Assembly (NCBI GenBank): GCA_030068145.1
Contig: JAPJBO010000624.1
Location: forward strand, 1-64,000
From: Diplonema papillatum
Lineage: Eukaryota; Euglenozoa; Diplonemea; Diplonemida; Diplonemidae
Length of the DNA: 64,000 nucleotides
Direction of reading: 5' to 3'
The first letter of the stretch is position 1; each line of letters starts with the position of its first letter. A model generated the notes under the pieces. The model did not search any database. It saw only the letters and a list, made by a program, of their open reading frames with translations, and had not been told where the DNA came from. Below, piece by piece: positions 26,078 to 32,692 of the stretch. The position numbers and the translations under genes were made by a program.

Positions 26078-26103
26078 ACACACACACACACACACACACA
26101 CAA

Positions 26104-26362
26104 AGCGAGGAATGCGACGGCACGATGCGCGAAACATGATGAACCCCGCTGCACCGCGTGTAAGAAGAGGCGCTTGCCCCCAGATACGTGTTGCGACCAG
26201 CAGCACATGGGACATGGAGCAGGGAGCCTAAACCAAACGAGGCTGCAGTTTAGATCAGAGCGTGGCCACCACGAGCAGCCGGCAGGACCATCAGCTGTGA
26301 CGTGAGGATGTTGACAACGTGGGCTATACTCCGCTTCAGGGGTTACCCGAAATTGAATTCCA
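26104..26362 (+). mobile_element. CA-associated retrotransposon, copy F (5'-truncated)
   Basis: Bounded on the left by (CA)n at about 26078-26103 and on the right by the 618-bp CA array. It comprises the C-terminal coding remnant described at 26138-26305 and a 57-bp 3' untranslated region (GGATGTTGACAACGTGGGCT...GAATTC). It shares this 3' region with copy G at 13108-13165 but not with copies C and D, so it marks a second subfamily. Confidence 0.75.
26138..26305 (+). pseudogene. Cys/His-module C-terminus of a diverged family-2 relative
   Basis: One frame reads CAKHDEPRCTACKKRRLPP, then DTCCDQQHM, and ends GHHEQPAGPSAVT before TGA at 26303-26305. The ligand pattern C-x2-H-x4-C-x2-C-x9-CC-x3-H is exactly that of family 2 (CTLHRKPRCKEC...ETCC), although most other residues have changed. 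The final residues match the family ending QPAGASAVT. The second module of family 2 is shortened or lost here. Confidence 0.7.
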
Positions 26363-26980
26363 ACACACACACACACACACACACACACACACACACACAC
26401 ACACACACACACACACACACACACACACACACACACACACACACACACACACACACACACACACACACACACACACACACACACACACACACACACACAC
26501 ACACACACACACACACACACACACACCACACACACACACACACACACACACACACACACACACACACACACACACACACACACACACACACACACACACA
26601 CACACACACACACACACACACACACACACACACACACACACACACACACACACACACACACACACACACACACACACACACACACACACACACACACACA
26701 CACACACACACACACACACACACACACACACACACACACACACACACACACACACACACACACACACACACACACACACACACACACACACACACACACA
26801 CACACACACACACACACACACACACACACACACACACACACACACACACACACACACACACACACACACACACACACACACACACACACACACACACACA
26901 CACACACACACACACACACACACACACACACACACACACACACACACACACACACACACACACACACACACACACACACA
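26363..26980. repeat. (CA)n microsatellite, 618 bp
   Basis: Nearly pure CA with a single CC interruption near 26526. It separates retrotransposon copies F and C. Confidence 0.98.
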
Positions 26981-28396
26981 GCGGTTTCAACCAAGTGGAA
27001 ATACGGCCCGGAGATGTGGATGGCGTTCACGGACTGGCTGAGAGAGTTGAACTGGGCGCCTCCAGGGCATGAGCTGGGGGTAAGCTTCGTTGAGTTAGCG
27101 GTGGACTTCGAGTTGTGCACCGGATGCCGGCTCCCGGCGCTCAGGAACCGGTACTACTCGGCGCCAAAACCCCCAGCACAGAAGGCCACTACAGCGCGTC
27201 GGGTGCTACCAGAAGGCGCAGCAGGTGGCGGGATAGCGGTTTACTTTGACGGAGGAGCAAGGGCGAACGGTACGGCTTTTGCTGTGGCGGGTGCAGGAGC
27301 AGTCCTATACAAAGAAGGCGTAAAGGTCTCGCAGATTGTGCTCCCGCTGCCAAATGTGCGCAGCAACAACGTTGCCGAGTACGAAGGAATGTTGGCAGGG
27401 CTACAGCTTTTGGAAGAGGCAGAAGGAACGGAAGGAAAGCAGTGCACCATCCGCGGCGACTCGGCTCTGGTAATTGGGCAGACCAACCGAAAAATGGCGT
27501 GTTCGGAAGACCTGAAGCCGCTATTGACCCGTGCAATAGAAAAGATGGTAGCCCTGCGGCAGCGACTCACGCTACGGGCGGAGCACGTCAAGCGCGAGGA
27601 GAATGTGGACGCAGATGCACTCAGCAACGCGGCGATGGACCTCGTGCAACAACAGCGCCCAACGCGAGAGCAGCAGGAGGCAGATCTCGCAGCATTTCGG
27701 GCCTCCGGACTCGGAAAGGCGATGAGTCTGGTCGAGCTAGGCAGCGCCTACAAGAAGGTGACAGGACGGCCGTGGTTCTATGGCCACGAATGTGCGACGA
27801 CGATCTTGACCTCCGTCGGGGGAACAGTCGTGAGGGGTGCTTCGCGGCGCGCGCAACTCACGGAGACAACCGACGCGGTCATCCTCGGCATCCGGGAGCA
27901 CGTAAGAACGCAGAAGCCGACACGGACGGAGACCGCGTTGTACCCCCAACACCTGGAATGGGCGGCAACCTATATCCCGGAGGAAGCCTACCCCGCAGGA
28001 TGGGCACAAGGAAAGGCCGACTGGAAGGCGAGGGCGGAGATGATAAACAAGGTTTCAGGTGCAGGAGCGTGCGGAGGGTCGCAACCGAAGAAGGCCCCAG
28101 AAGACGCGGTGAACACATCACGCCCCGGCGAGATTTGCACGCTACACAGAAAGCCCCGATGTAAGGAATGTGCGAAAAAGCGCTTGCCAGCGGAGACGTG
28201 TTGCCGGTATAAACGACACCACCATGAAGGAGACGGCCTAAGGCCGCGGATGCTATACTGCTCGATCCACAGACTGGGGCGCTGCGGCGAGTGCGAAGCA
28301 GACAACGAAGGGATCGCGAGGTGCTGTACAAGGCACCACCCCCAGTTGAACACGGACCCCCACTCGCAACCTGCGGGAGCATCGGCGGTTACTTGA
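26981..28396 (+). CDS. Retrotransposon RNase H and Cys/His-module C-terminal fragment
   Basis: Open for 471 codons in frame from the CA junction to TGA at 28394-28396; the ATG at 27014 is internal to the family protein. It contains a conserved segment WMAFTDWLREL...ELAVDFEL. An RNase H domain follows at about residues 84-215: FDGGARANG with catalytic Asp, NNVAEYEG with Glu, RGDSALV with Asp, and NVDADALSN with Asp. Two Cys/His repeats come next, CTLHRKPRCKEC...ETCC...HHH (about 386-413) and CSIHRLGRCGEC...RCC..HH (about 426-450). RNase H would remove the RNA template strand. All four catalytic residues are present and no stop interrupts the frame, so the insertion is recent. The reverse transcriptase is lost by truncation. 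Confidence 0.85.
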   Translation, partial: AVSTKWKYGPEMWMAFTDWLRELNWAPPGHELGVSFVELAVDFELCTGCRLPALRNRYYSAPKPPAQKATTARRVLPEGAAGGGIAVYFDGGARANGTAFAVAGAGAVLYKEGVKVSQIVLPLPNVRSNNVAEYEGMLAGLQLLEEAEGTEGKQCTIRGDSALVIGQTNRKMACSEDLKPLLTRAIEKMVALRQRLTLRAEHVKREENVDADALSNAAMDLVQQQRPTREQQEADLAAFRASGLGKAMSLVELGSAYKKVTGRPWFYGHECATTILTSVGGTVVRGASRRAQLTETTDAVILGIREHVRTQKPTRTETALYPQHLEWAATYIPEEAYPAGWAQGKADWKARAEMINKVSGAGACGGSQPKKAPEDAVNTSRPGEICTLHRKPRCKECAKKRLPAETCCRYKRHHHEGDGLRPRMLYCSIHRLGRCGECEADNEGIARCCTRHHPQLNTDPHSQPAGASAVT

Positions 28397-31907: not shown

Positions 31908-31967
31908 AACCGGAAGAAGCGTGGACGTCTCTCGTACAGGAAGGCACCACGTTAAAACGGGTCCGCA
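28962..31967 (+). mobile_element. Family-2 CA-flanked retrotransposon, copy D (5'-truncated, longest)
   Basis: The 5' edge is inside the reverse transcriptase directly after CA repeats. The 3' end GGTCCGCA runs directly into a 701-bp CA array. It has the same order and 3' end as copy C, which it matches well over the shared region, with many more substitutions than separate copies A and B. No poly(A) tail; CA repeats take its place. Confidence 0.9.
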
Positions 31968-32668
31968 ACACACACACACACACACACACACACACACACA
32001 CACACACACACACACACACACACACACACACACACACACACACACACACACACACACACACACACACACACACACACACACACACACACACACACACACA
32101 CACACACACACACACACACAACACACACACACACACACACACACACACACACACACACACACACACACACACACACACACACACACACACACCACACACA
32201 CACACACACACACACACACACACACACACACACACACACACACACACACACACACACACACACACACACACCACACACACACACACACACACACACACAC
32301 ACACACACACACCACACACACACACACACACACACACACACACACACACACACACACACACACACACACACACACACACACACACACACACACACACACA
32401 CACACACACACACACACACACACACACACACACACACACACACACACACACACACACACACACACACACACACACACACACACACACACACACACACACA
32501 CAAACACACACACACACACACACACACACACACACACACACACACACACACACAACACACCCACACACACACACACACACACACACACACACACACACAC
32601 ACACACACACACACACACACACACACACACACACACACACACACACACACACACACACACACACACAC
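31968..32668. repeat. (CA)n microsatellite, 701 bp
   Basis: The longest CA array in the window, with single-base interruptions (AACAC near 32120, CCAC near 32192, 32271 and 32312, AAAC near 32502, ACACCCAC near 32561). Confidence 0.98.
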
Positions 32669-32692
32669 GCTCAGGGGTTACCCATTACTGAT
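32669..32692 (+). mobile_element. Scrap of a CA-associated element 3' end
   Basis: GCTCAGGGGTTACCCATTAC, then TGAT, follows the CA array and is itself followed by CACCCACACACACA. It matches the 3' scrap at about 13265-13290, so even this tiny piece is bounded by CA-rich sequence. Confidence 0.6.

Follow-up and report, generated by a model that had tools for sequence, protein, structure and literature searches.

Non-long terminal repeat (non-LTR) retrotransposons of Diplonema papillatum (Euglenozoa) were found embedded in (CA)n microsatellites, and very probably insert by target-primed reverse transcription into arrays that were there before them. The stretch of DNA considered (positions 1–64000 of contig JAPJBO010000624.1, 64,000 nucleotides [nt]; referred to as the window) belongs to an assembly of 271 Mb in 2,910 contigs and contains pieces of at least two related families of such elements, here called family 1 and family 2. 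For this genome, the genome paper gives about 280 Mb, a repeat content of 52% and about 2,500 retroelement-type gene models, and announces a rigorous inventory as future work (PMC10161547). The full-length anatomy of family 1 could be delineated; its copies share a constant 3′ end, lie in one orientation relative to the repeat, have CA on both sides, and are truncated at variable 5′ positions. This pattern extends across the genome, and the second family behaves alike.

Results and Discussion

Genomic flanks of family 1

The 3′ end of family 1 had 774 matches in the genome (≤3 mismatches), and the reversed pattern had none; an exact search with 18 bases of the 3′ end gave 476 matches. Flanks were tabulated for 48 copies of at least 95% identity that reach the 3′ end, the duplicate loci L014, L039, L056, and L058 being excluded. 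The 3′ flank was strictly CA in 44 copies and CA-rich but imperfect or short in the other four (L023, L041, L048, and L063). For 21 of the 48 copies, the 5′ edge lay beyond the fetched stretch. Among the 27 truncated 5′ edges that were reached, 18 followed strict CA, two followed imperfect CA (L023 and L048), one followed CA plus a filler of ∼20 nt (L004), and two adjoined a duplicated piece of the element (L034 and L064); the remaining four are taken up below. A sequence-only reading of the window had claimed a single orientation of the elements relative to the repeat; CA was indeed on the sense strand in all window pieces and, likewise, in the 48 genomic copies wherever a CA flank was present. 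The same reading had proposed tabulating genomic flanks to distinguish targeting from tail synthesis, and the presence of CA before the 5′ edge as well as after the 3′ end supports targeting.

Full-length copies gave the same picture. The intact 5′ terminus had 34 matches (≤3 mismatches; 32 exact), and in 25 of 25 that were fetched, pure CA of 14–310 nt, always ending in A, directly preceded the element. Three pairs among these 25 flanks were nearly identical, which leaves at least 22 independent insertions; all three pairs lie in arrays starting at the end of another element, so that what the members of a pair share may be a repeated part of an element. Counter-examples were sought with a pattern of 20 exact bases, the last five being CCGCA, followed by any base and then a base other than C. 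Against the 476 exact 18-base ends, this pattern had 10 matches: CACACA continued in six, one or two extra bases preceded CA in two (L062 and L063), one was an imperfect site (L058, which is the same copy as L050), and the last, L057, is considered with the mechanism. At L050 itself, which is inserted at an imperfect site, a 13-nt direct repeat (CTCACACATACAC) stands on either side of the element and matches the expected target duplication. As a measure of chance, 20-mers were sampled from the window outside the region, of which 0.13% scored as CA tract; in the genome as a whole, roughly 0.54 Mb (0.2%) consists of pure CA runs at least about 24 nt long. CA flanks the copies much more often than expected from these values. 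Assembly collapse was ruled out as a source of the pattern: no two of 46 3′ flanks, compared outside the CA tract, were nearly identical, and the 25 5′ flanks contained only the three pairs mentioned. Thus, family 1 combines a reverse transcriptase (RT) domain with a 3′ end that stays constant and 5′ truncation that varies, as is characteristic of a non-LTR retrotransposon, and is specific for one simple repeat at both junctions and in one orientation, as is characteristic of a microsatellite-specific one.

Anatomy of the full-length element

An intact copy (L055:125-7420, from C3:438624 onwards) is 7,296 bp long and consists of a 42-nt 5′ untranslated region (UTR), an open reading frame (ORF1) of 397 aa, an in-frame TAG, ORF2 of 1,999 codons, and 63 nt from TGA to GGTCCGCA. 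ORF1 had no match in Pfam or NCBIfam. The TAG (L055:1358-1360) is the single in-frame stop between ORF1 and the long ORF2, which lacks an early ATG and has its first Met within the OTU-like domain. The TAG context is kept in 24 of 25 full-length loci, and ORF1 is open as far as the TAG in 21 of 25, but the full-length copies are mostly almost identical around it, which makes these counts close to one observation; readthrough (or reinitiation) at this position is only a suggestion.

ORF2 encodes an OTU-like domain, an APE endonuclease, RT, a zinc knuckle, an archaea-type RNase H, and a doubled Cys/His module. The OTU-like domain scored under the profile cut-off (E 0.001) but has the motifs DGNC (Cys) and HYD (His); the profile matched two relatives above the cut-off (P0006, E 6e-9; P0011, E 3e-7) and one below it (P0004, E 8e-4). 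P0003 had no match in the same search; DGNC was missing from the family-2 models P0007 and P0008. Judged by both motifs and the profile match, the domain is a putative OTU cysteine protease. The endonuclease (PF03372, E 2.2e-10) and the full RT domain (PF00078, E 3.6e-18) were clear; the best solved chains for RT were L1 ORF2-type (E 6e-13), followed by R2. The knuckle, CPYCx8HxxxxC, corresponds to zf-RVT (E 0.02). For RNase H, the best solved chains and NCBIfam models were archaeal-type and mycobacterial RNase HI, the NCBIfam scores all being below curated cut-offs. Its motif VKRExNxDADALSN, near the C-terminal Asp, has Arg where His is usual, which we take to be a mark of the archaea-like group; the nearest matches and this Arg together would place the domain in that group.

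At the C-terminus, CxxHx4CxxC..CC..HH occurs twice, ending in GASAVT. The module is also found outside the CA group, with three copies each in a related window family that serves as control below, in P0009, and in P0015. The predicted structure of the C-terminal 239 residues had a mean pLDDT (predicted local distance difference test) of 48, too low for conclusions on its fold. Pfam listed no restriction-like endonuclease (RLE), and R2 chains matched the RT region only, although absence of a sequence match is a weak test. No relative was found when viral contigs were scanned with part of the RT.

Related families within and outside CA

The 3′ end of family 2 (CTCCGCTTCAGGGGTTACCC) had 299 genome matches (≤1 mismatch). 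All 20 fetched 3′ flanks (among the first 24 listed) entered CA after ATTGAATTCCA or a variant of it, by eye, although the downstream tract was short or imperfect in about seven of the 20. Of 13 5′ edges reached, 10 followed CA (two of these short or imperfect), again by eye. The C-terminus ends in PAGPSAVT* and contains the Cys/His module as in family 1. P0007 and P0008 share 44% identity with family-1 ORF2 over 46% and 41% of its length, respectively; P0007 was placed in family 2 by its C-terminal DNA and P0008 by its likeness to P0007. The best named relative of family-1 ORF2 was P0001 of D. papillatum (78% over 84%). In an RT tree of 26 proteins, both CA families and the ENA proteins P0003, P0004, P0006, and P0011 were grouped at 94/95, and the D. 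papillatum proteins P0013, P0014, and P0017–P0019, among others, fell apart from this group; two of 28 rows were omitted for short overlap (the window control family and P0005), and several outer rows were long-branched. Precomputed RNase H and OTU domains lay on the CA side of the tree and were found in none of P0009 and P0012–P0019. Exceptions were P0002, on the CA side, the gene model of which lacks them, and the distant P0020, P0021, P0024, and P0025, which have RNase H.

Two side observations concern these relatives. At one place (G000:C249:27276-27984), the family-2 3′ end occurs in tandem, mostly at 53-bp spacing. Moreover, by eye, presumably 2A-like motifs (DVEENPGP and DIHPNPGP) precede the APE domain in the related proteins P0015 and P0016 (EukProt transcripts), which are of long interspersed nuclear element (LINE) type.

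A LINE family (window positions 1–1290, 1340–4513, and 39830–40480) whose RT is related and whose C-terminus carries a module of this kind served as the control. Its 3′ end had 3,893 genome matches (≤2 mismatches), and CA was present in none of the 20 fetched 3′ flanks, which shows that related LINEs of the D. papillatum genome do not generally share the preference for CA. These flanks fell mostly into two repeated types, AACATAACGTGGGCGGC-like (10 of 20) and GAACATCGACGTGGGCGGC (5 of 20). The sequences shared by these 15 flanks contain ACGTGGGCGGC or come close to it; the control family may prefer a repeated site of its own, or its 3′ end may be further on.

Pre-existing arrays versus element-made CA

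The arrays might also be made by the element, if CA tails were synthesized or seeded at its 3′ end, slipped, expanded, and received later copies; a tail-made microsatellite model of this kind has been put forward for the microsatellites of Lepidoptera and RTE elements (PMC2887409). It would agree with the left ends of the arrays: in 12 of 25 full-length loci (nine by script, three by eye; 9 of 22 when the three near-identical pairs count once), the array begins at the 3′ end of a related element. Across the genome, 390 pure CA runs of at least 22 nt start directly at GGTCYRYA, the family-1-type 3′ end, and A, the base of element 3′ junctions, precedes 72 of 100 AC-phase starts among those listed (by eye). 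The 390 runs correspond to about 8% of 4,905 left boundaries, counted for pure CA runs of ∼24 nt or longer (interrupted arrays being counted more than once). Against this model, CA is found upstream of the 5′ edge too, including the 13 of 25 full-length copies whose array starts at sequence not recognized as an element end. Nor are downstream tracts longer than upstream ones. The medians were 42.5 nt upstream (n = 48; 22 full-length copies, one per near-identical pair, and 26 truncated copies, non-CA edges included) and 49 nt downstream (n = 52; omitting two tracts that run into a contig end and two lacking the query; Mann–Whitney p = 0.58, unselected); the paired comparison for the 26 truncated copies gave p = 0.45. 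Four loci (L022, L024, L025, and L030) even had 146–198 nt of CA upstream and 10–21 nt downstream. Similar tract lengths on both sides are expected if copies insert at random positions along an array that already exists, and this explanation, therefore, fits better than CA tail synthesis. The latter was set aside as the origin of both flanks on account of the upstream CA of truncated copies and the equal tract lengths, and arrays of the element's own making are improbable.

Selection against insertions elsewhere would enrich CA sites as well, if the elements inserted at random and survived in CA arrays only. We consider this very improbable: thousands of matches of the control family, with no CA in its fetched flanks, indicate that non-CA DNA tolerates insertions, and purging would yield neither the constant junction phase (25 of 25 starts after A) nor the fixed orientation. 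That CA tracts belong to both ends of the element RNA and are simply carried along, as CA directly before every fetched full-length 5′ end might suggest, is the least probable explanation; 5′-truncated copies, in which the element 5′ end is lost, also start after CA, at many positions, and for this reason CA as a part of the element was set aside.

Proposed mechanism of insertion

In target-primed reverse transcription into an existing array, the APE endonuclease of the element would nick the TG strand. The freed TG 3′ end would anneal to CA within the 3′ end of the element RNA and so prime cDNA synthesis, and priming by TG would set both the orientation and the 3′ junction, GGTCCGCA-ACAC. A cut of the CA strand after A would produce the constant start of full-length copies (CACACA directly followed by GGGGG), and early stops of the RT would leave 5′-truncated copies, mostly still after CA. 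The nick positions, the primer pairing, and the domain reading the target are what we infer.

Several points weigh against this interpretation. Nicking and priming rest on sequence. Truncated 5′ edges lacked CA in 4 of 27 cases in family 1 (L035, L040, L041, and the first copy of L038) and in 3 of 13 in family 2 (L091, L103, and L106); this means either that 5′ joints can fall outside the array or that other sites are occasionally used. L057 has no CA on its 3′ side, the sole such case of the 10 counter-example places, and that search was limited to ends with CCGCA. A clear target duplication was seen in 1 of 19 copies scanned, although within pure CA a duplication is undetectable. Copies were drawn by exact 25- or 71-base matches to the 3′ end, the first ones listed being taken, and old copies are thus under-represented. 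Finally, the control is weaker than its 0 of 20 suggests because the flanks represent about seven contexts and the true 3′ end may lie further on in some.

Micro-copies and the 3′ hairpin

Thirty loci were sampled by an exact match to 25 bases at the 3′ end. Of these copies, 14 begin at element positions 7243–7251 and are nominally 46–54 bp long; one of the 14, L034, also has a duplicated element piece. A hairpin is predicted in the 60-nt family-1 tail (−18 kcal/mol), and none of the 14 5′ edges is more than 9 nt away from its 5′ base. In family 2, 4 of 20 copies (L099, L100, L107, and L110) start at GGGCTATA or 1–2 bases earlier, which is likewise the base of a predicted hairpin. The prediction rests on folding energy and conservation; among nine sequences and 13 pairs, no pair had changed on both sides. 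Stalling of RT at a structure would be expected at the 3′ arm, yet the whole hairpin is copied, and a template RNA ending there would therefore fit. It is possible, although the chance appears somewhat below even, that the machinery spreads a hairpin “micro-element” of ∼50 nt between CA tracts from a short RNA ending at the hairpin 5′ base, and that the families help keep their CA-array habitat alive. Such upkeep is suggested because, for roughly one in two of the full-length copies fetched, the target array begins at the 3′ end of an earlier element.

Element pieces and other features of the window

The three large (CA)n arrays of the window (26363–26980, 618 bp; 28457–28961, 505 bp; 31968–32668, 701 bp; no strand assigned) and the short CA/AC arrays read from the sequence (12884–12919; 13291–13545, 255 bp; 26062–26102) border seven element pieces, all on the forward strand. 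That all seven border CA, as claimed earlier, was borne out by reading the sequence, and five have CA on both sides. The largest, copy D (28962–31967), is a 5′-truncated family-1 copy with CA at both edges and 100% identity to positions 4291–7296 of the L055 element. It contains the C-terminal portion of RT (28962–29327; PF00078, E 4e-5, below the curated cut-off because truncated), the archaea-type RNase H (30741–31145; RVT_3, PF13456, a Pfam profile match), the doubled Cys/His module (31647–31850; the Cys/His columns are invariant in the alignment), and the predicted 3′-UTR hairpin, GCGTGG...CCACGT (31919–31952), at the 5′ base of which the ∼50-bp micro-copies start. Copy C (26981–28456), also between CA, is a truncated member of a sister subfamily of copy D with RNase H and the Cys/His module, and is by eye nearly identical to P0001. 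As the sequence-only reading had noted, copies C and D stop alike, at GGTCTACA and GGTCCGCA, respectively, with ACACAC immediately after.

Three further pieces have CA on both sides: a truncated family-2 copy (26104–26362) with the Cys/His module ending in ..PAGPSAVT* and the 3′ UTR; a micro-copy of a family-2 variant 3′ end (32669–32692; GCTCAGGGGTTACCCATTACTGAT), which by eye resembles the 3′ end of L093; and a 51-bp family-1 variant micro-copy (12920–12970) consisting of the hairpin only. A truncated, diverged family-2 copy (12979–13165, by eye) has CA at its 5′ edge only and ATTGAATTGCTATTGAACC on the 3′ side, and a family-2 variant 3′ end (13242–13290) is followed by the 255-bp CA array and has no CA 5′ of it. 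Hence, the earlier statement that every 5′ edge directly follows CA holds for six of the seven pieces and fails for 13242–13290. The assumption of a single family had to be given up in favor of at least two related ones, with 26104–26362, 12979–13165, 13242–13290, and 32669–32692 belonging to family 2 or its variant. The predicted combination of RT, RNase H, and Cys/His module agreed with motifs and profile matches: in copy C, Pfam recognized RNase H, and in copy D it recognized RNase H, RT, and, weakly, a zinc knuckle. Because only truncated copies occur in the window, the sequence-only reading had missed ORF1, the OTU-like domain, and the APE endonuclease.

Elsewhere in the window, positions 22205–25370 are a satellite of 3.2 kb that contains long open frames and has a repeat unit of 22 bp (CAAATTCAGTGTGGCACACCCG), and an ORF at 43073–43609 resembles, by eye, the C-terminus of a hAT-type transposase. 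An antisense fragment of eukaryotic large subunit rRNA of ∼100 bp (Rfam) lies at 16841–16943; about 3,600 scattered 28S pieces are given in the genome paper (PMC10161547). The main text of that paper does not contain the words “microsatellite” or “dinucleotide.”

Relation to known elements

Waldo and other R1-clade elements of insects target ACAY-type repeats and, like family 1, use an APE-type endonuclease; to our knowledge, Waldo-type elements have neither an OTU-like domain nor such a C-terminal module. Dualen/RandI elements carry a protease domain. They have been described as having both APE and RLE, and RNase H has been reported (PMC4640811). By description, Dualen/RandI resembles family 1 in its long ORF2, APE (PF03372 in family 1), RT, RNase H, and N-terminal cysteine-protease-like domain, but differs in having the RLE, none of which was detected in family 1 by the weak test described. 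The same source lists (TG)n-specific Togen families in fish and microsatellite-specific HERO families, and assigns most target-specific families to the early-branched, Tx1, and R1 groups (PMC4640811). Togen is, like family 1, a non-LTR element specific for the same dinucleotide repeat but stands near HERO/NeSL, lineages with RLE as the sole endonuclease, whereas family 1 has APE, the OTU-like domain, and RNase H. In a survey of Repbase 20.08, archaea-like RNase H was confined to plant and oomycete elements among the retrotransposons (PMC5348765); family 1 has the same type in a euglenozoan host. The trypanosomatid ingi/L1Tc elements are also euglenozoan and share APE, RT, and RNase H with family 1 but end in a poly(A) tail (PMC12278014), in place of which family 1 has GGTCCGCA and then CA. 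No such element showed up among the top results of looser literature searches. Thus, microsatellite targeting is already known in kind; within the literature searched, the novelty lies in the lineage, the host group, and the domain set.

Since one genome contains both a CA-targeting APE family and a related family without this habit, comparing the two is a natural way to ask which domain recognizes the target. The copies reduced to the hairpin, in turn, suggest a minimal RNA recognized by the machinery; if they indeed stem from a short RNA, such an RNA would be an exceptionally short LINE template and would offer a minimal handle for insertion into CA repeats.

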